DNA of 64,000 nt from Clostridia bacterium (GTDB lineage: Bacteria; Bacillota; Clostridia; Oscillospirales; Acutalibacteraceae): positions 1 through 64,000 of the forward strand of contig JAFYOI010000035.1 in assembly GCA_017560255.1 (NCBI GenBank), written 5' to 3'. This document shows positions 10,445 through 20,892 of this stretch, in pieces. How positions within the stretch are numbered: the stretch's first letter is position 1; each line of letters begins with the position of its first letter. Under the pieces are notes generated by a model. The model was given only the letters and a program-made list of their open reading frames with translations. It had not been told where the DNA came from and made no database searches. The position numbers and the translations under genes were made by a program.

Positions 10445-13237
10445 ATGGGATTACTTACTAAAATTTTCGGTGATTACAGCACCAAGGAATTGAAGCGTAT
10501 TGAACCGATTAAAAATAAAGTTTTAGCGCTTGATGAAAAATTCTCCGCTATGAGCGAGCAAGAGTTGAAGGCCATGACGGGAGTTCTTAAATCAAGGCTT
10601 GAAAACGGCGAAACGCTCGACGATATTTTACCCGAAGCATTTGCAACCTGTCGTGAGGCGGCTTGGCGTGTGCTTAATATGAAGCACTTTCCCGTGCAGA
10701 TTATCGGTGGTATTATCTTGCATCAGGGCAGAATTTCCGAGATGCGCACAGGTGAGGGTAAAACCCTTGTGGCAACTCTTCCCGCATATCTTAACGCGCT
10801 TTCGGGTAAGGGTGTGCACATCGTAACGGTTAACGACTATCTTGCGCGCCGTGACTCCGAGTGGATGGGTAAAGTTTACCGTTATCTCGGACTCAGTGTC
10901 GGACTTGTTGTCAGCGGTATGACTCCCGAGGAGAAAAAAATCGCATATAATGCCGATATCACTTACGGTACAAACAATGAATACGGATTTGACTATCTTC
11001 GTGACAATATGGTGCAGTATAAGCAACAGAAAGTTCAGAGGGGTCACAATTACGCCATCGTGGACGAGGTTGACTCAATTCTCATTGACGAGGCGAGAAC
11101 TCCGCTCATAATTTCAGGTAGGGGCGAGCGCTCGTCCGAACTTTACACCCTTGCAAACAGATTTGCAAAATCTCTCAAAATGGTCAAGGTTGTTGAGCAG
11201 AACAAAAAAGAGGAGAGCGACGAACTTTACGCTGACGCTGACTACATCGTCGACGAGAAGGCAAAGACCGCAACTCTTACAAAGAACGGTGTTGCAAAAG
11301 CGGAAAGAACTTTCAAGGTTGATAACCTTATGGATTTTGATAACCTTACTTTGCAACATCATATTAACCAGGCAATCAAAGCGCACGGCGTAATGCACAG
11401 AGATATTGACTATGTTGTCAAGAATAACGAAGTTATCATCGTTGACGAATTTACGGGTCGTTTAATGGTTGGCAGACGTTATAATGAGGGACTTCACCAG
11501 GCGATTGAAGCAAAGGAAGGCGTAAAGGTTGAAAACGAGTCAAAGACTCTTGCAACAATCACTTTCCAGAACTATTTTCGTCTTTATACCAAACTTTCAG
11601 GTATGACGGGTACTGCTATGACCGAGAGAGAAGAATTTGAAGAAATTTACAAACTCGACGTTGTGGAAATCCCAACCAACAAACCGCTTCTCAGAGAGGA
11701 TTTACCAGACTCAATTTATAGAACGGAAGCGGGCAAAATCAAGGCTATAATCGCACAGATAAAAGAGTGTAACGAGAAAGGCCAGCCCGTACTTGTCGGT
11801 ACAGTTACAATCGATAAATCCGAAATGCTCAGTGCAATTCTCAAAAAAGAGGGCATAAAGCATCAGGTGCTCAATGCAAAGCATCACGAGCGTGAGGCGG
11901 AGATTGTTGCGCAGGCGGGTAAACTCGGCGCCGTAACAATTGCAACCAATATGGCGGGCCGTGGTACCGATATTATGCTCGGCGGTAATGCGGAATATCT
12001 TGCAAAGGCAGAAATGAGAAAACTTGGCTATACCGAAGAACTCATTGTTGAGGCAACGGGCTTTGCGGAAACCGATAACGAGGAAATCCTTGAATCAAGA
12101 CGAGTTTTCAAGGAACTTGAGAGTAAATATAAGGCGGATATAGAAAAAGAGGCACAGGAAGTTAAAAATGCGGGCGGTTTGTTCATTCTCGGTACGGAGA
12201 GGCACGAATCCCGTCGAATTGATAACCAGTTACGCGGTCGTGCGGGCCGTCAGGGTGACGAGGGTACAAGCCGATTCTTTATTTCTGCTGACGATGACCT
12301 TATGCGTATATTCGGCGGAGAGAGAGTCAAGAGTATTCTCGGAATGCTCCGTGTGGACGAGGATATGCCGATTGAGCATAAAATGCTTTCAAACGTTATT
12401 GAAAGTTCACAGAGAAAAGTTGAAGGCAGAAACTTTGCAATCCGTAAAAACGTTCTCCAGTACGACGACGTTATGAACCGTCAGCGTGAGATTATTTATG
12501 ACCAGAGAAATCAGGTGCTTGACGGAATTGATCTGAGGGCAACCGTCTGGAAGATGCTCGATGGTGTTATTTCCGATGCCGTTGCATCTTACTGCCCGAT
12601 GACAGACGGTACTGTCTGGAATCTTGACGCGCTTCGTGAGAAGTTTATGGGCTGGATTCTTGATGAAAACGACCTTAAATACACCGATGAGGAAATGGCT
12701 GAAATGTCAGCAAGTGACGTTGAACAGTTTATTACCGGAAAAGCCCACGCAAAGTACGAGGAGCGAGAGCGCGAGATGGAAACCGTACTTGCACATATTT
12801 ATGAGGCAACCGGTGAACATCCGATGAGAGAGGTTGAGCGTTTTGCTCTCCTGCGTAACGTTGACGAGAAGTGGATGGACCACATTGACGCTATGGAAGA
12901 ACTCAAACAAGGTATTGGGCTTCGTGCATATGGTAACAGAGACCCGGTAGTTGAATTCAGACTTGAGGGCTTCGATATGTTTGACGATATGACCAAGGCG
13001 ATCCGAGAGGATACCGTCAAAATGATATTTATGTTCAAGGTAAAACGTCAGGAAGACGTTGAACGTAAAGAGGTTGCCAAAGTTACGGGACACAGTGGCG
13101 GCGATTCAAGCGACAGCGGCAGCAAAACTGTCCGCAATACAAACAAGGTCGGCAGAAACGAATTCTGCCCTTGCGGAAGCGGTAAGAAATACAAGAAATG
13201 CTGCGGTATGAACCAAGGCACAACCGAACAGAACTAA
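10445..13237 (+). CDS. secA: Preprotein translocase ATPase SecA
   Basis: 930 residues, full length. Walker A GEGKT is at residues 103-107 and the DEVD box at 207-210. Helicase motifs NMAGRGTDI and [10 protein letters not shown] follow. The C-terminus ends with the SEC-C zinc motif [14 protein letters not shown], which contacts phospholipid and SecB or ribosomes. SecA drives proteins through SecYEG. It is the last gene of the PHP operon; the ATG follows TGAGGTGAC. Confidence 0.98.
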
Positions 13238-13239
13238 AA

Positions 13240-13275
13240 AATAACCCGCAGTCATCGACTGCGGGTTATTTTTAT
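13240..13275. terminator. Bidirectional terminator between secA and the ATPase-like gene
   Basis: ATAACCCGCAGTC and GACTGCGGGTTAT form a 13-base-pair stem with A/T runs on each side, ending the convergent units. Confidence 0.92.
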
Positions 13276-15860
13276 TTTTTGATAAATTTAGGAATGATAC
13301 AGGCAAGAACCGCTACAACTAACTGTAATATAATCAGGCTAAGTGCCGAAATGCCGATGTTTACGTCGCTGAGCGCGGATACTGCAAAGAGCGCAAACAG
13401 GATGATTGCACCGATTATGTTGACTCTGAATGCCGCGCGGAGCATTGAACGCAAACGTAGGGAGAATGAGAGCGTTTTGAACATTGAACGCGGATTGTTT
13501 CTGTGGACGATGGAAGCGGCAAGTTTCGGGTGAGAAGCCTTGCTGAAAATTCTGTAAAGTTCGCCGCAACGTCCGTTGAGAATCTTGAACGTTGATTCAT
13601 ACGCGCCGAAGTAGTGCGCGAGCATCTGCTCGGACAGGTTCGGGTCAGTTGAACGTACAAGCAAGGTTATGTCGTGGTCTTGCAAATGCTTGATGTATGG
13701 TGTCAGTTTAGTGTCGGGAGTAAGACCTACAACGAACATTGCTGAAAGCACATTTTCAACCGCCAGGTATAAAATCTGTCTGTTGTTTTTTGTGTACTTT
13801 CTTTCGTTCTGCGGTGTGAGTACGTCAATGCCGCGGTGCACCATCATATCCCTGTTACCGACCAGAATTCTCTTGCCGTCAATCCATGCGGTAATGCCGA
13901 GCCCGTCCTCGTAATTACATTCTTCAACCTCGGGCAGAATTTCCTGTCTGCCGCCGATAATTGTTGTAAAAATAGCACCAAGCGGGTTTTCCGCGCATAC
14001 TAGTGCGGCAGTTGTCAAAAGGATTGCCTCGTCAATCGGCATACTCTTAAATGTCTTGATTCCGTAGAGTGAGCAACATTCTCTCGGGAATAATGAGCAA
14101 CTGTCAACGGCAACTGCGTTTGTGTCTGCGCTTTGTTCAATCGCACCGCAACCGAGAATAACGCCGTCTTTTCTGTTCTTTCTTGAAAATCTCAGAAGCG
14201 GAAGATTAGCGCACAAACCTGCCGCGGCGGGAATGCTGCAACAAGTCAGCGCGGTAAATGCGGTTATCGCATTGAGGAACGTTTTGCTCATAATGAAAAC
14301 GAGAATTGAAACAACAAATCCTATGATTATAAGCACCAGTGAGAATTTGCCGTACTTGTGCTTGAACTCGTCTTCCTCGTTTGACGTCTGCAGGAATTTT
14401 GAGATATTCTTGACCTTTGCTGAATATACGATGGTGGGATTTGGGTCGGGAATACCCTTGCCGAGAAGTGAGGCGATGTCATCGTCACCGATTTTGGATA
14501 CTGCATAAATGTCGGGCATTTCCGACAGGTTGTGGAAATTGTTTTTAATTCTTTCCTCAACTGAAAGTTTACCCCATGAGTGCAGCAACATTATCATAAT
14601 AACGGCGATTTGGTACGGGTAAACGTCGGCAACCGATAAATCCGATACGATGAACGTAAAGTTTTGTATAAGCGCGGCGAGTGTTGCAACCGCTATTGCC
14701 GAGTTTATCGTGAATTTTTTGTTTATTACCGTCGCAACGCCCGAAATGAGAGTGTGCGAGTATATAACCCCCGCAACTATCAGTATGAACGTGTTTAGTA
14801 CACCATACAAAGCAATGTTGCCGTCGGCGGGGAATAAGAAAAACAACAGCGCATTGAAAATGCCCATAACGAGCAGGGCGATAACCTGTATTGCCCTTGT
14901 TGCATATCTTTCACGCAAGGTTGAGTGAACTCCCTTTTTCTTCGGGAGAGTGGGTTGCGGTTGTGTTTCTTCGGGTGCTTTGTCCGGACCTTGTATCTGG
15001 TCGGGTTCGGGTGGCTGTGCTTCTTCCTCTTCACCCTCGTAAACGTCAAAGATTTTCTTGGCGTTGAATTCGCTGATTTTACGCAGTCTTGTGTTTCGCA
15101 GTTGCTCTGCAACAAACTCGTCGTCAACTTTGTCGGGTGCAGTTTCGTCGTCAAAACCGCTGAGCCTTATCTGACCCTCAACAACCTGACTGTCACTTGT
15201 TGGTGATTCAGGCGCTTTTTTGCCCGAATTGAAGATTCGTGCAAGGTCATCGGTGGAAGTGTCGCTGAGTTTTCTTTCAGGAGTTATCGTCGCTGTTGTG
15301 AAAACGTCGTCGGTTGCGCCGGGTTTGGAGATTCTGCGACGCATTTCGCCCGTTTGAGAAAACTCCATACGGCTACGCTGATTGTTCACTCTGCCGTCGA
15401 TAACGGATTGACCTTTAAATGAGCGCTCGGGCTTATCGTCCTTCTTCGTTACGTTGGGGACGGATATTGTCGAGTCGGTCTTGTTGTCGGCAGTTTTGAC
15501 CTTTGCGTTCCCTGCGCCCGATTCAAACATAATTGTGCCCGTATCCTCAAATTTGAGCGGCTTTGTTTGAAATCTTGAACGCTTGAAATACATCGTTGGC
15601 GAATCGTCGGGGTTTTTAAGCCTTTCAAAGACGGCAGTCGCTTCACCGTCTGTTTTTGTATATTTACTTGTCGTTTCTTCAATGTCGGAAACAATGGCGG
15701 ATTTCTTATCACCGTCAGATGAAAGAATAGCATCAACCTTATCAAGCACTTCCTGTTTTTCGGGGGAGAGTTCAGCGGCTGTGCCGTCGTCCTCGTAATC
15801 ACCCTTTGAGTGCTTGATTTCCTCCATTATCTCATCAATAATTGTTTTATCGTTTGACAT
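13272..15860 (-). CDS. P-type ATPase-like membrane protein with degenerate catalytic motifs
   Basis: 862 residues. The first ~310 are hydrophilic, acidic and low complexity (probably disordered, cytoplasmic). Then comes a P1B-ATPase-like frame: four helices (about 325-430), a shrunken actuator region without TGES, a helix pair, the CPx-like CCSIPAAAG (541-549), GVILGCGAIEQ (567-577), the nucleotide-domain-like GLGITAWIDGKRILVGN (654-670), and two C-terminal helices. The phosphorylation site DKTGT is replaced by DSCSL (Asp587 kept), HP by NP (626-627), TGD by STD (738-740), and GDGxND is not found. ATP-driven transport is therefore doubtful. It starts 15 bases after rlmB, with AGGAGGTG before the ATG at 15860. 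Confidence 0.75.
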   Translation of the reverse strand: MSNDKTIIDEIMEEIKHSKGDYEDDGTAAELSPEKQEVLDKVDAILSSDGDKKSAIVSDIEETTSKYTKTDGEATAVFERLKNPDDSPTMYFKRSRFQTKPLKFEDTGTIMFESGAGNAKVKTADNKTDSTISVPNVTKKDDKPERSFKGQSVIDGRVNNQRSRMEFSQTGEMRRRISKPGATDDVFTTATITPERKLSDTSTDDLARIFNSGKKAPESPTSDSQVVEGQIRLSGFDDETAPDKVDDEFVAEQLRNTRLRKISEFNAKKIFDVYEGEEEEAQPPEPDQIQGPDKAPEETQPQPTLPKKKGVHSTLRERYATRAIQVIALLVMGIFNALLFFLFPADGNIALYGVLNTFILIVAGVIYSHTLISGVATVINKKFTINSAIAVATLAALIQNFTFIVSDLSVADVYPYQIAVIMIMLLHSWGKLSVEERIKNNFHNLSEMPDIYAVSKIGDDDIASLLGKGIPDPNPTIVYSAKVKNISKFLQTSNEEDEFKHKYGKFSLVLIIIGFVVSILVFIMSKTFLNAITAFTALTCCSIPAAAGLCANLPLLRFSRKNRKDGVILGCGAIEQSADTNAVAVDSCSLFPRECCSLYGIKTFKSMPIDEAILLTTAALVCAENPLGAIFTTIIGGRQEILPEVEECNYEDGLGITAWIDGKRILVGNRDMMVHRGIDVLTPQNERKYTKNNRQILYLAVENVLSAMFVVGLTPDTKLTPYIKHLQDHDITLLVRSTDPNLSEQMLAHYFGAYESTFKILNGRCGELYRIFSKASHPKLAASIVHRNNPRSMFKTLSFSLRLRSMLRAAFRVNIIGAIILFALFAVSALSDVNIGISALSLIILQLVVAVLACIIPKFIKK

Positions 15861-15875
15861 CACAGCACCTCCTGT

Positions 15876-16628
15876 TTAGGAATTTCTGTTTCTTGCCACT
15901 TCGTACATAAGTATGCCCGCTGCAACGGACGCGTTGAGAGAGGAGATTTTACCCTTCATCGGAATTGAAACGATAAAGTCGCAGTTTTCGCGCACAAGGT
16001 GACTCATACCGTTGCCCTCCGAACCGATTACAAGCGCAACCGCGCCTGAAAAATCAACCTTTGAGTATGCCTCGCCATCCATATCCGCGCCGTAAATCCA
16101 GACACCTCTGTCTTTGAGTTCTTTCATAGTTGAAGCAAGATTGCTTACTCTTGCAACGGGGAGATGCTCAATAGCGCCTGCGGACGTTTTGCCAACAATG
16201 TAGGTCAGACCTGCGCCGTGTCTTTTCGGAATAATTACGCCGTGAGCGCCCGCACATTCTGCGGTACGGATAATTGCGCCGAGGTTGTGCGGATCCTCAA
16301 TATCGTTACAGATGATAATGAACGGTTTTTCGTCCCTCTCCTGTGCAAGAGCGAAAATATCGTCAACGCTTGAATATTCGCAAGCAGCGGCAACCGCAAC
16401 AACTCCTTGGTGGCTTGTATGCGGACACATAAAGTCAAGTTTCTTTAAGTCAACTTCTTTTACAACTATGTTTTTATCCCTGCACATAGAGATAATTTTG
16501 CCAACGCTGCCGCCGCGCTCGCCGCGGGCAACGAGCAATTTGTCAATCGGCCTACCCGAGCGGAGCGCTTCCGTAACGGCGTTTCTGCCGATAATAAGGT
16601 CGGAATCTTTCTGGTTTTTCTCTATCAT
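15876..16628 (-). CDS. rlmB: 23S rRNA 2'-O-methyltransferase RlmB (TrmH family)
   Basis: 250 residues. The substrate-binding N-domain begins with IIGRNAVTEALRSGRPIDKL. The SPOUT knot carries NDIEDPHNLGAIIRTAE, VIGSEGNGM and PMKGKISSLNASVAAGI, the three TrmH motifs. RlmB methylates a guanosine of the 23S peptidyl-transferase region. The ATG at 16628 follows CGGAGGT; the upstream ATG at 16664 has no such site. It is followed closely by the ATPase-like gene, probably in one transcript. Confidence 0.93.
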   Translation of the reverse strand: MIEKNQKDSDLIIGRNAVTEALRSGRPIDKLLVARGERGGSVGKIISMCRDKNIVVKEVDLKKLDFMCPHTSHQGVVAVAAACEYSSVDDIFALAQERDEKPFIIICNDIEDPHNLGAIIRTAECAGAHGVIIPKRHGAGLTYIVGKTSAGAIEHLPVARVSNLASTMKELKDRGVWIYGADMDGEAYSKVDFSGAVALVIGSEGNGMSHLVRENCDFIVSIPMKGKISSLNASVAAGILMYEVARNRNS

Positions 16629-16760
16629 GAATATACCTCCGTATAAAAGACAATATAATAACAATTAATTCTAACATAGATTTAAGTAAAATGAAAGTGA
16701 AAATATAGCCAAAATGAAACTATTTGTCGATAAATTTGCATTTTGATATCGTTTTTAATC

Positions 16761-16796: not shown

Positions 16797-17057
16797 GTGA
16801 AAGGCTGTGAACAAGACAAGTAGCATAGGAATTCGTTTGAAGTGAGTGCGGGGCAGTGTAAACCGCGTAACAGAGCCTGTGTGAATAACACTTGGGAGCC
16901 GCAATCTGAACGGTGTAAACTCAGTAGGTGCGACGGGGGCTGACCGTTATATTAGCAGGCTTTTTGTGAAGCGCAGAGTGACCGGAAACGGTAAGATAGG
17001 TGGTACCACGGGTGCAGGCTCGTCCTATTGTCAGAGGGCGGAACTGTGCTTTTTTTA
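16797..17057 (+). ncRNA. T-box leader (tRNA-sensing riboswitch) of the asparagine operon
   Basis: The 3' part holds the T-box core AGGTGGTACCACGG at 16998-17011. Downstream is an alternative hairpin (CGTCCT at 17021-17026, AGGGCG at 17035-17040) and a T run at 17050-17056, which form the terminator. Upstream is a long structured stem I with an AGTA near its 5' side, like the S-turn of specifier loops. An AAC at 16909-16911 followed by G is a candidate Asn specifier, but I could not fold the stem to prove it. Uncharged tRNA would favour read-through into asnS. Confidence 0.9.
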
Positions 17058-17102: not shown

Positions 17103-18476
17103 ATGAAACATACGGATATAAAGGAAGTAATGTCAAATGCGGCGCTTGTCGGCACAAATGTTGTTGTCTGTGGCTGGGTAAGAACTGCGAGAGATTCCAA
17201 AAACATCGCGTTTATCGAACTTAACGACGGTACAACTCTCAAACATCTTCAGATAGTTATTGACAAGTCTGTTATGAACGCACCCGCCGGTGCAACAAAC
17301 TTGGGAACTTCTTTGCGCGTTGAGGGCGAAGTTGTACCTAATATGAAAAATGACGGAGTGGAGATCAACGCTCGTTCAATTGATATTCTCGGAGCGTGTC
17401 CCGCTGACTATCCGCTTCAAAAGAAATTCCAGAAACTTGAAACTTTGAGAGAAATCCCGCATATCAGAGTGCGTACAAATACTTTTAACGCAGTTTTCCG
17501 TGTTCGTTCCGTAATGGCTGACGCTATCCACAGATATTTCCAGGACAGAAACTACGTTTACGTCAACACCCCGCTTATTACGGGCAGTGACTGTGAGGGC
17601 GCAGGTGAAGTGTTCAAGGTAACTTCAATCGGATATTCCGATCAATACAAGAGCGAGCAGGAGTACTACGCTGATGACTTCTTCGGAAAGAAAGCGGGCC
17701 TTAGCGTTTCGGGTCAACTTGAGGGTGAAGTTGCGGCTATGGCATTCGGTAAGATTTATACCTTCGGTCCGAGTTTCCGCGCGGAAAACAGTAACACTCC
17801 CCGCCACGTTGCAGAATTCTGGCACGTTGAGCCCGAGGTTGCATTTGCTGAACTTTCCGACATCATTGAGATTGCCGAGGATATGATTAAATACATCATC
17901 AGGGACGTTATGGAGAAGTGCCCCGCTGAACTCAAATTCTTTGAGGAGAGGTTTGAAAAAGGGCTTATCGAGAAACTCACAGGTGTTGTTGAAAACAGTT
18001 TTGCAGTTGTTGATTACACAACCGCGGTTGAGCAGTTGATTGCATCGGGTAAGAAGTTTGAGTACCCTGTTGAATGGGGACTTGACCTTCAGACCGAGCA
18101 CGAGAGATATATCACGGAGGAAATTTACAAAAAACCCGTATTCATCACAAACTATCCGAAGGATATCAAGTCATTCTATATGAAGCAAAATCCTGACGGC
18201 AAAACCGTTGCGGCAACCGACTTGCTCGTTCCGGGCGTTGGTGAAATCATCGGATGCAGTGAGCGTGAGGCTGACTACGACAAACTCCTTGATGCTATGA
18301 AACAGCGCAATATGAATATTGAGGAGTACAAGGACTACATTGATTTGCGTAAATACGGTTCTGTTCCGCACAGTGGATTCGGACTCGGATTTGAAAGAAT
18401 TATTATGTACGTTACGGGTATGAGCAACATCAGGGACGTTATCCTTTACCCCAGAACAGTTGGCTCAATACGTTAA
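17103..18476 (+). CDS. asnS: Asparaginyl-tRNA synthetase
   Basis: 457 residues, class IIb synthetase. An N-terminal OB-fold anticodon-binding domain (about 10-105) leads to motif 2 (FGPSFRAENSNTPRHVAEFW) and the motif 3 region GFGLGFERIIMYVTG near the C-terminus. The Glu/Asn-rich catalytic core matches bacterial AsnRS rather than AspRS. It charges tRNA-Asn with asparagine. First gene after the T-box leader; GAAAGGTGAC precedes the ATG. Confidence 0.96.
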   Translation: MKHTDIKEVMSNAALVGTNVVVCGWVRTARDSKNIAFIELNDGTTLKHLQIVIDKSVMNAPAGATNLGTSLRVEGEVVPNMKNDGVEINARSIDILGACPADYPLQKKFQKLETLREIPHIRVRTNTFNAVFRVRSVMADAIHRYFQDRNYVYVNTPLITGSDCEGAGEVFKVTSIGYSDQYKSEQEYYADDFFGKKAGLSVSGQLEGEVAAMAFGKIYTFGPSFRAENSNTPRHVAEFWHVEPEVAFAELSDIIEIAEDMIKYIIRDVMEKCPAELKFFEERFEKGLIEKLTGVVENSFAVVDYTTAVEQLIASGKKFEYPVEWGLDLQTEHERYITEEIYKKPVFITNYPKDIKSFYMKQNPDGKTVAATDLLVPGVGEIIGCSEREADYDKLLDAMKQRNMNIEEYKDYIDLRKYGSVPHSGFGLGFERIIMYVTGMSNIRDVILYPRTVGSIR

Positions 18477-18491
18477 GAAAGGGATAAACCG

Positions 18492-19499
18492 ATGAGTAAA
18501 TTATATGTGCCGAAGGATTACGTCAGCAAACTTTCCGTGCGTGACACCCAGAGGGCAATCAAATTTATCAAAGACACTTTTCAGATAAACCTTGCAAATG
18601 AGTTGCAACTTGACCGCGTTACCGCTCCCATTATCGTAACGAAAGAGAGCGGAATTAACGATGACCTCAACGGCGTTGAACGCAAGGTAAGTTTCACGAT
18701 GAAGGAAATTGAGGGCGAGGGTGAGGTTGTTCAGTCCCTTGCAAAGTGGAAAAGAAAGGCGTTGCACGATTTCGGCTACGTTGCGGGCGAGGGTATTTAT
18801 ACCGATATGAACGCCATTCGCCGTGATGACGACGTTGACAATATTCACTCAATTTTCGTTGACCAGTGGGACTGGGAGAAGATTATCACAAGGGAGCAGA
18901 GAAACAAAGAATTTCTCTGCGACGTTGTAAGGCGTATTGTAAAAATCCTTGCTTACACAAAGCAGATTGTAAAGGACAGATACCCCGTGTTGAAATACGA
19001 TATTTGTCCCGACGTGTTCTTTATCACTTCGCAGGAACTTGAGGATATGTACCCCCGAATGACCGCTAAGGAGAGGGAGAATGCAATCACACGTGAGCAC
19101 AAATCTGTGTTCATTATGCAGATTGGCGACGTGCTCAGAAGCGGTAACAAGCACGACGGCAGAGCGCCCGACTACGACGATTGGTCGCTCAACGGAGATC
19201 TGATGATCTGGAATGACGTTCTTGAAAGTGCGTTGGAAGTTTCTTCAATGGGAATTCGTGTTGACAGTGCGGCACTTCTTTCTCAACTTGAAAAAGCCGA
19301 TGCTCTTGACCGAAAGAAGTTTGAGTATCACAGCGGCATCATCAATGACATTTATCCCTTGACAATCGGCGGTGGTATTGGTCAGTCAAGAATTTGTATG
19401 CTTATTCTCGAAAAAGCGCATATCGGTGAAGTTCATTCATCAATCTGGCCCAAAGACCTCCGTGAAGAGTGCAAACGCGCTGGAATAAACCTTTTATAA
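18492..19499 (+). CDS. asnA: Aspartate-ammonia ligase (asparagine synthetase A)
   Basis: 335 residues. The class II synthetase-like fold is seen in VVQSLAKWKRKAL, EGIYTDMNAIRRDDDVDNIHS, QWDWEK and the C-terminal GGGIGQSRICM. AsnA makes asparagine from aspartate, ammonia and ATP. Placed 15 bases after asnS under the same T-box, it raises asparagine supply when tRNA-Asn is uncharged. Confidence 0.96.
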   Translation: MSKLYVPKDYVSKLSVRDTQRAIKFIKDTFQINLANELQLDRVTAPIIVTKESGINDDLNGVERKVSFTMKEIEGEGEVVQSLAKWKRKALHDFGYVAGEGIYTDMNAIRRDDDVDNIHSIFVDQWDWEKIITREQRNKEFLCDVVRRIVKILAYTKQIVKDRYPVLKYDICPDVFFITSQELEDMYPRMTAKERENAITREHKSVFIMQIGDVLRSGNKHDGRAPDYDDWSLNGDLMIWNDVLESALEVSSMGIRVDSAALLSQLEKADALDRKKFEYHSGIINDIYPLTIGGGIGQSRICMLILEKAHIGEVHSSIWPKDLREECKRAGINLL

Positions 19500-19518: not shown

Positions 19519-20892
19519 ATGGAATTTGTAAATTATGAAAAGAAACAGGATGTTCAGGACATTCAGTATATAATCGAAAAAGTTAAGAGTGGCGAGATAA
19601 AGGACGGTGAGAATATCACCGTTAAAGGCGCAATTTACAGAATTAAGGAAATGAGCGGCTTTGCTTTCGTAAACGTAAGAGCGGCAGGCGTAATTTATCA
19701 GTGCGTCTGGGAAGAGGGCAACTCCAGAATTAACATCAAGGACTTCAAAGCGGAAGAGTGTGTTATCATTGACGGTACAGTTGTTATTGAGGAACGCAGC
19801 CGCCTTGGCTTCGATATCCGCATCAACGATATGACCCGTATTTCAGGCAACGTTGAGCAACTTCCCGTTGAAATCAGCAACGATAAGGTGATTACAAAAT
19901 TGCACATAAATAAACTCCTTGATTACAGAGTAATTACACTTCGCAACCAGCGTGTAAGAGCGATTATGAAAATCTCCAGTGGCGTACTCAACGGCTTCAG
20001 AGATTTCTTGCGCGGCGAAGGTTTTACAGAGTTTGTACCGCCAAAAATCGTTCAGGCAGGTGCAGAGGGCGGCGCAGATATGTTTGAGGTTGACTACTTC
20101 GGTGAGAAAGCATACCTCAACCAGAGCCCGCAGATGTATAAGCAGATTATGGTCGGCGTGTTCACAAAGGTGTTCACAACAAGCCCCGTTTTCCGCGGTG
20201 AAAAGCACAGCACAAACCGTCATATCAATGAGTTCCAGGGACTTGATCTTGAGATGGGATTCATCAATTCTTTTGAGGATCTTATGGAACTTGAAGCAAG
20301 ACTTTTCAAGTATCTTTACGCTTATATAAATGAAAATTACGGTGCAGAACTTGACATCGTACTCGGTAAAGGTAAGCGTTTACCCGAACTTACAGTGTTC
20401 CCGAAGATCAAGTTTGCCGATGCGAAGAAACTCTTTGCTGACGCTCACCCCGGAAAGTACGGTGAATCAACTCTCAAAGAGCCCGACCTTGATCCCAATG
20501 AGGAACGTTGGCTTGGTGAGTATTTCAACAAGGAGTACAATGCTCCCGTTGTTTTCATTACTCATTATCCGACGATTAAACGTCCGTTCTATGCAAAGGA
20601 AGACCCGACAAATCCTGAGGTTACACTCAGTTTTGATATGCTTCTCAATGGCCTTGAGGTAACAACCGGTGGACAGAGAATTCACGATTATGATGAGCAG
20701 GTTGCAAAAATGCAGCGTCTTGGAATGAACGTGGAGGAGTTTGAGGATTACCTGACAATGCACAAGTACGGAATGCCCCCGCACGGCGGAATGGGACTTG
20801 GACTTGAAAGAATTGTCCAGAATATGCTCGGCCTTCAGAATATCAAGGAGGCAACCGCGTTCCCGAGAGACCGCGAAAGACTCCGCCCGTAA
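19519..20892 (+). CDS. aspS: Archaeal-type aspartyl-tRNA synthetase (aspartate--tRNA(Asx) ligase)
   Basis: 457 residues, class IIb. The OB-fold is at about 32-115, then the catalytic domain with QSPQMYKQIMVG, motif 2 SPVFRGEKHSTNRHINEFQGLD and the motif 3 region GMGLGLERIVQNMLG. It lacks the bacterial GAD insert, so it is the short archaeal form. In bacteria such second copies are commonly non-discriminating and charge both tRNA-Asp and tRNA-Asn. That property is inferred here from context. Confidence 0.88.
   Translation: MEFVNYEKKQDVQDIQYIIEKVKSGEIKDGENITVKGAIYRIKEMSGFAFVNVRAAGVIYQCVWEEGNSRINIKDFKAEECVIIDGTVVIEERSRLGFDIRINDMTRISGNVEQLPVEISNDKVITKLHINKLLDYRVITLRNQRVRAIMKISSGVLNGFRDFLRGEGFTEFVPPKIVQAGAEGGADMFEVDYFGEKAYLNQSPQMYKQIMVGVFTKVFTTSPVFRGEKHSTNRHINEFQGLDLEMGFINSFEDLMELEARLFKYLYAYINENYGAELDIVLGKGKRLPELTVFPKIKFADAKKLFADAHPGKYGESTLKEPDLDPNEERWLGEYFNKEYNAPVVFITHYPTIKRPFYAKEDPTNPEVTLSFDMLLNGLEVTTGGQRIHDYDEQVAKMQRLGMNVEEFEDYLTMHKYGMPPHGGMGLGLERIVQNMLGLQNIKEATAFPRDRERLRP

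Follow-up and report, generated by a model that had tools for sequence, protein, structure and literature searches.

The P1B-type ATPases are the closest described relatives of the protein reported here. These pumps are characterized by the motifs DKTGT, TGES and GDGxND, by a CPC- or SPC-type metal site and commonly, though not universally, by HMA metal-binding domains at the N-terminus. Loss of catalytic residues does not necessarily end the life of an enzyme fold. Pseudokinases and the iRhom pseudoproteases are pseudoenzymes that have been retained as scaffolds or regulators. We know of no described case of an order-wide pseudoenzyme among the P-type ATPases. Neither a dead P-type ATPase nor the N-terminal motif described below turned up in text searches, in which few subscription journals were covered. 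As far as sequence libraries and these searches show, it may be new that a pseudoenzyme of P-type ATPase origin belongs, in single copy, to the core proteins of an entire bacterial order.

The locus

The window analysed here is a stretch of 64,000 nucleotides from a Clostridia bacterium. Its minus strand carries, at positions 13272 to 15863, an open reading frame of 863 codons in the window translation, which we call the pseudo-P1B-ATPase or pseudo-pump gene. The product has 862 or 863 residues, as the frame can begin at ATG 15860 or at the in-frame GTG 15863. Most likely, ATG 15860 is the start codon, with AGGAGG at 15873-15868 ahead of it. Throughout this text, residues are numbered with the GTG (15863) as residue 1. 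The rlmB gene coding for a TrmH/SpoU-type 23S rRNA methyltransferase is located directly upstream on the minus strand (15876-16664), with 12 bases between its end and the GTG. The initial sequence-only reading, which described a full-length frame behind rlmB, was correct in this respect. A promoter-like site, a consensus match only, precedes rlmB (16702-16730, minus strand). A 17-pair bidirectional terminator-like hairpin without assigned strand (13237-13273) separates the pseudo-pump gene from the convergent secA gene (10445-13237). The short gap, the promoter-like site and the terminator suggest that rlmB and the pseudo-pump gene form an operon. The window also contains a T-box leader (Rfam RF00230, 102 bits; 16798-17030, plus strand) ahead of an AsnS-like gene (17103-18476), which is followed by a gene for an AsnA-like aspartate-ammonia ligase (18492-19499) and by a second class II synthetase gene of the AspRS/AsnRS type (19519-20892).

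For comparison of gene order, we collected 61 stretches including the window, one of which contains an ordinary CopA on the second contig of one genome as a contrast. In all 59 family loci other than the window, representing more than 20 families, the gene immediately upstream is rlmB, in the same orientation and mostly 4-50 bases away. None of the other neighbours is constant among the family loci; genes for a DNA glycosylase, an EF-G-like protein, an aldolase and TrpS are present only in some of them. This strict adjacency and the suggested co-transcription might indicate a membrane protein linked to translation, either through ribosome assembly or through tethering of the ribosome or the translocon. 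However, core genes of unrelated function often stay together, profile searches of the window protein returned no RNA-binding domain, and the N-terminal motif is shared with envelope proteins rather than ribosomal ones. Thus, we give a role in translation only a small chance, and the constant co-location with rlmB may reflect nothing but shared expression.

Fold and residual architecture

Kinship of the window protein with P1B-ATPases is above chance by sequence and much stronger by structure. The family is not named in current libraries. Pfam returned no match at all for the window protein at E 1, not even to an N-terminal HMA domain. The NCBIfam pump models stay far below their cut-offs, as illustrated by TIGR01525 (heavy-metal P-type ATPases), which matches residues 496-752 with an E value of 9.6e-11 at 41 bits versus a cut-off of 346. 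In a phmmer search, the window protein matched LpCopA at E 6e-7; models of defence systems gave no match. An AlphaFold2 model of residues 307-863 (13275-14945, minus strand), the membrane and pseudo-catalytic core, was calculated from 51 aligned homologues and reached a mean pLDDT of 91.4 and a pTM of 0.87. A model of the Clostridium sporosphaeroides homologue was of comparable quality (pLDDT 89, pTM 0.82). The best solved match of the core model in Foldseek was LpCopA (4bbj, E 6e-18), and VIA-align placed it on LpCopA 3rfu with a Z score of 22.7 over 484 residues. Folds other than P-type ATPases were not prominent among the Foldseek and VIA-align matches listed. The proposed P1B plan of the core is therefore borne out, and the searches gave no indication of an unrelated fold.

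In the model, the core comprises eight membrane helices in the P1B order, namely MA, a kinked MB and M1 to M6. Retention of all eight helices could point to a passive ion conduit or facilitator derived from the membrane domain of a pump. In line with this, Pro545 is preserved in 52/60 members, Pro555 is conserved and a Trp at position 850 in M6 occurs in 57/60, with Val in the window protein. The ion-binding residues of M4 to M6 are not conserved, however, and a conduit would leave both the conserved P/N platform and the long N-terminus unexplained, so that its chance of being the right explanation is slim.

Comparison with CopA from the same genome revealed where the protein has been shortened. 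The remnant of the A domain (residues 449-498; 14370-14519, minus strand) consists of 51 residues versus 116 in CopA and lacks TGES. In the P domain, 51 residues separate the Asp of the old TGD motif from M5 compared to 81 in CopA; about 30 residues around GDGxND are missing. Other distances have been preserved, i.e. the segment from M4 to the P domain (42 versus 43 residues) and the N domain (153 versus 154). The nucleotide-domain fold spans residues 595-715 (13719-14081, minus strand), as judged by alignment and structural match.

Lost and conserved residues

The strings on which the sequence-only reading was based, CCSIPAAAG, DSCSL, GLGITAWIDGKRILVGN and STD, are all found in the window protein, and TGES and GDGxND are absent. 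DSCSL (residues 587-591; 14091-14105, minus strand) takes the place of DKTGT, and the triplet I544-P545-A546 (14226-14234, minus strand) aligns with the CPC ion site in M4. The loss exceeds what had been described. TGES is gone as stated, and so are more than half of the A domain, the roughly 30 P-domain residues and the CPC cysteines.

The same losses extend to the whole family. We inspected 124 members, 60 from the collected loci including the window and 64 from named genomes, a few of which duplicate sampled ones. DKTGT, TGES in the core, GDGxND and CPC in M4 were each found in 0/124 members. Hence, there was no homologue with an intact DKTGT that would have contradicted the initial proposal. 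TGES strings in some of the named members were rejected as A-domain motifs since they lie in the N-terminal tail outside the core. Sequence patterns were derived from a closer alignment of 8 rows, a set of 27 rows being too diverse. A conserved functional role of Asp587, whose conservation the initial reading had proposed to check, gained no support: only 24/60 members have it, chiefly those near the clade of the window protein, and Ser, Thr, Arg, Asn or others replace it elsewhere. Where DKTGT used to be, the family commonly reads [DS][DAS]x[DE][LIV]FP.

In many families, this site reads [ST]D.[DE][LIV]FP. Its D-x-D arrangement (xDxDLFP) resembles a HAD-like motif, and one of 42 members gave a weak match to the Pfam Hydrolase model. 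An active pump relying on unconventional chemistry is nevertheless very unlikely because D-x-D is absent from the clade of the window, the GDGxND region and the TGES loop are missing in all members, the A domain has less than half its length and CPC is lost.

Some residues of the P and N domains are highly conserved. G656 is present in 59/60 and G669 in 60/60 members, both in the N domain. A Tyr at position 714 occurs in 58/60, the window protein having Leu. The Asp of the old TGD motif, D740, is preserved in 58/60 members and is accompanied by a new Asn, N742, in 53/60 (D740-P-N742 in the window protein; 13638-13646, minus strand). Judged by the alignment, few features of the dead P domain are as conserved as D-x-N at this site. 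Together with the glycines, it suggests that the P and N domains still do something beyond serving as a pure anchor.

Since the P/N platform retains a few highly conserved residues, the main rival to the scaffold proposed below is a membrane sensor (transceptor). Instead of pumping, its dead P/N domains would bind a nucleotide, a metal or another ligand and use the disordered N-terminus for signalling. Preservation of the N-domain fold with both glycines, the new D-x-N pair and the overall P/N geometry are compatible with such a function. On the other hand, the SEHP site, whose Glu and His bind ATP in CopA, has lost its His, and its Glu in most members; it reads AENP in the window protein and GGPL in most others, the Glu-His pair being mostly GG. 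Moreover, CPC is lost, and neither an invariant metal-ligand cluster nor another conserved ligand site that would argue for a sensor was found among the family members. A sensor is somewhat unlikely.

Distribution and selection

A family profile built from 42 diverse members matched 275/295 sampled genomes of the order with E values of 1e-43 or better. Among good genomes, defined as at least 90% complete and at most 5% contaminated, 220/226 had a match. By way of the named relatives Acutalibacter, Neglectibacter, Caproiciproducens, Faecalispora, Anaeromassilibacillus and C. sporosphaeroides and their place in GTDB, we take this order to be the Oscillospirales; the family to which the window belongs is probably the Acutalibacteraceae. 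All but a few genomes contain a single match. The six good genomes without a match at this threshold may represent gaps or true losses. Two nearly complete genomes of the order, G104 and G275, have no detectable full-length member, owing to either loss or an assembly gap.

The profile detected no full-length member in other orders of the class. There, it recognized ordinary pumps only, with at most 142 bits and restricted to profile positions 208-507, as opposed to full-length matches of 229-665 bits inside the order. The window protein alone as query gave no match against the genome contigs, and a protein search recovered the first relatives within the same order. In a tree of 29 pseudo-pumps and 45 real pumps, the pseudo-pumps fall on one side of a branch with an SH-aLRT support of 100; their own branches are long and some joins inside the family are unsure.

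Pairwise dN/dS values of 0.02-0.17 for the core and 0.12-0.28 for the N-terminus show that both parts are under purifying selection. This bears on the explanation of a decaying pseudogene or an assembly artefact. In its favour, all catalytic motifs are gone, and the members from three genomes (G022:C38, G077:C4 and G276:C178) each have one in-frame TGA, which may stem from decay, recoding or an error in sequencing. The explanation is refuted by frames that are intact in nearly all genomes, by dN/dS values far below 1 and by the constant synteny, and retains a negligible chance. The window protein is almost certainly a conserved pseudo-pump and not a one-off pseudogene. The near-universal occurrence in single copy, the purifying selection and the rlmB arrangement strongly support the initial proposal that the protein has evolved to be non-catalytic.

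N-terminal region and motif

Residues 1-306 (14946-15863, minus strand) form an acidic, cytoplasmic N-terminal region of low hydrophobicity without a transmembrane segment. The residues V, I, L, M, F, W, Y and C make up 22% of this region versus 43% of the core, and a hydrophobic segment is absent. By composition, these approximately 306 residues are probably disordered, close to the 310 residues initially estimated. The length of the region varies across the family from several hundred residues to complete absence in the members of family f10. The latter (L085, L086 and L087) consist of the membrane core alone, about 545 amino acids without a disordered arm, and are still encoded directly behind rlmB.

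Near its start, the N-terminal region of most family members carries the motif [FY][ST][VIL][DE][DE]IL.E followed by basic residues. A motif score of at least 14 was reached by 72/124 members compared to 1/654 other ORFs of the same loci, the single exception being an interior site of SecA. As the scores were fitted to the family by eye, the evidence lies in this contrast with the controls and not in the raw count. Shuffling of the N-terminus, member by member, gave p <0.01 for many members. The version in the window protein, TIIDEIMEE (residues 7-15; 15819-15845, minus strand), is weaker than the family form, and several families of the order have only a weak motif or none.

Two further sequence elements were noticed in other members and are absent from the window protein. 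L035, L038, L039, L053 and L293 have a second conserved N-terminal module, DIYYG[IL][QK]L, and beyond it a stretch RF..LH.ER..R that looks helical. Most A3/A4 members, for instance L152 (DTGESIDDYTGPEDAKSISHE), have a conserved juxtamembrane motif DDY..P.DA.S just before MA.

Whole-genome pattern searches uncovered the motif at the termini of envelope proteins. It is N-terminal in an LCP protein (L295, PF03816), in VanW/PG_binding_4 proteins from four genomes of one genus (L297, L298, L300 and L335; PF04294 and PF12229 in the three that were scanned) and in an ABC-2 export permease (L250, PF01061). In LspA (L258, PF01252), it is placed at the very C-terminus. This LspA (L258:2488-3357, plus strand, genome G098) has a low-complexity tail of about 120 residues that ends in YSLEDILAEFRDI, equivalent to the pseudo-pump motif. 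The N-termini of the LCP, VanW-type and ABC-2 proteins are long, probably disordered and start with [VIL][DE][DE]IL.E, possibly as parts of a wider docking system. The last two pattern searches yielded 27 matches (9 and 18, two pairs of which are the same site) versus one in the reversed control. Motif-bearing envelope proteins came from few genomes and from a pattern search, and convergence is possible. Matches at interior sites of folded proteins, among them EF-Ts, SecA and AarF-like ones, were taken as chance.

Discussion

The protein encoded in the window is a pseudoenzyme derived from a P1B ATPase, as documented by the homologous fold, the clade-wide loss of catalysis and purifying selection. 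Its fold is P1B-like, but the defining catalytic and ion-site features are lacking, and it should therefore not be classified among the pumps. The loss of all pumping elements from a P1B-type ATPase may predate the radiation of the Oscillospirales or coincide with it, and the protein may since have been retained as a core protein of the order.

Our favoured reading, a tentative one whose chance we rate slightly short of even, is that of a membrane-anchored docking scaffold for envelope proteins. The eight-helix core would anchor the protein in the membrane, and its P/N domains would form a rigid platform on the cytoplasmic side. The long flexible N-terminus could reach out and use the helical peptide [FY][ST][VIL][DE][DE]IL.E to dock a partner in the cytosol. 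If the docked partner also recognizes the same peptide on envelope-building enzymes, the pseudo-pump might help to position the assembly of the cell wall or envelope, or to regulate it. An involvement in envelope organization is suggested by the motif being common to pseudo-pumps and envelope proteins, and in the choice between sensor and scaffold the N-terminal docking motif leans towards a scaffold. Nevertheless, peptide docking cannot be the whole function everywhere because several families have a weak motif or none and f10 members lack the N-terminal extension. A more far-reaching version is an order-specific docking system, in which one cytosolic hub would read the peptide on the tails of LCP ligases, polysaccharide exporters, LspA and VanW-type proteins, with the pseudo-P-type ATPase as universal membrane platform. 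We consider it somewhat unlikely. If true, it would make a dead ion pump an organizer of the cell envelope.

The Oscillospirales include many abundant gut anaerobes whose cell biology is little known. The pseudo-pump family offers a clean natural experiment, the fold of a pump without its cycle, and the peptide common to envelope enzymes is a concrete lead to a possible envelope-organizing system.

How does the family relate to known systems? With LpCopA (3rfu, 4bbj) and human ATP7B it has in common the overall fold, the order of the eight helices, the kinked MB and the N/P architecture, and with CopA the spacing between M4 and the P domain as well as the N-domain length. In contrast to P1B pumps, it lacks DKTGT, TGES, GDGxND and CPC, has a halved A domain and a shortened P domain, and carries a long, probably disordered N-terminus where pumps commonly have HMA metal-binding domains. 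The ordinary P-type ATPases of the same genome, a CopA-like protein (L001) and two others, are distant homologues with 21% identity over the P/N region. DKTGT, TGES and GDGxND are intact in these ATPases, and the pseudo-pumps form a group separate from them. Some LytR-CpsA-Psr, VanW/PG_binding_4, ABC-2 export and LspA proteins are, like the pseudo-pumps, membrane proteins with the same terminal motif on a cytoplasmic tail that is probably disordered; their membrane or extracellular domains are unrelated to the pseudo-pump, and the motif-bearing forms were found in few genomes. Finally, like the pseudokinases and iRhoms, the pseudo-pumps exemplify a catalytic fold that has remained under selection after the loss of its catalytic residues.
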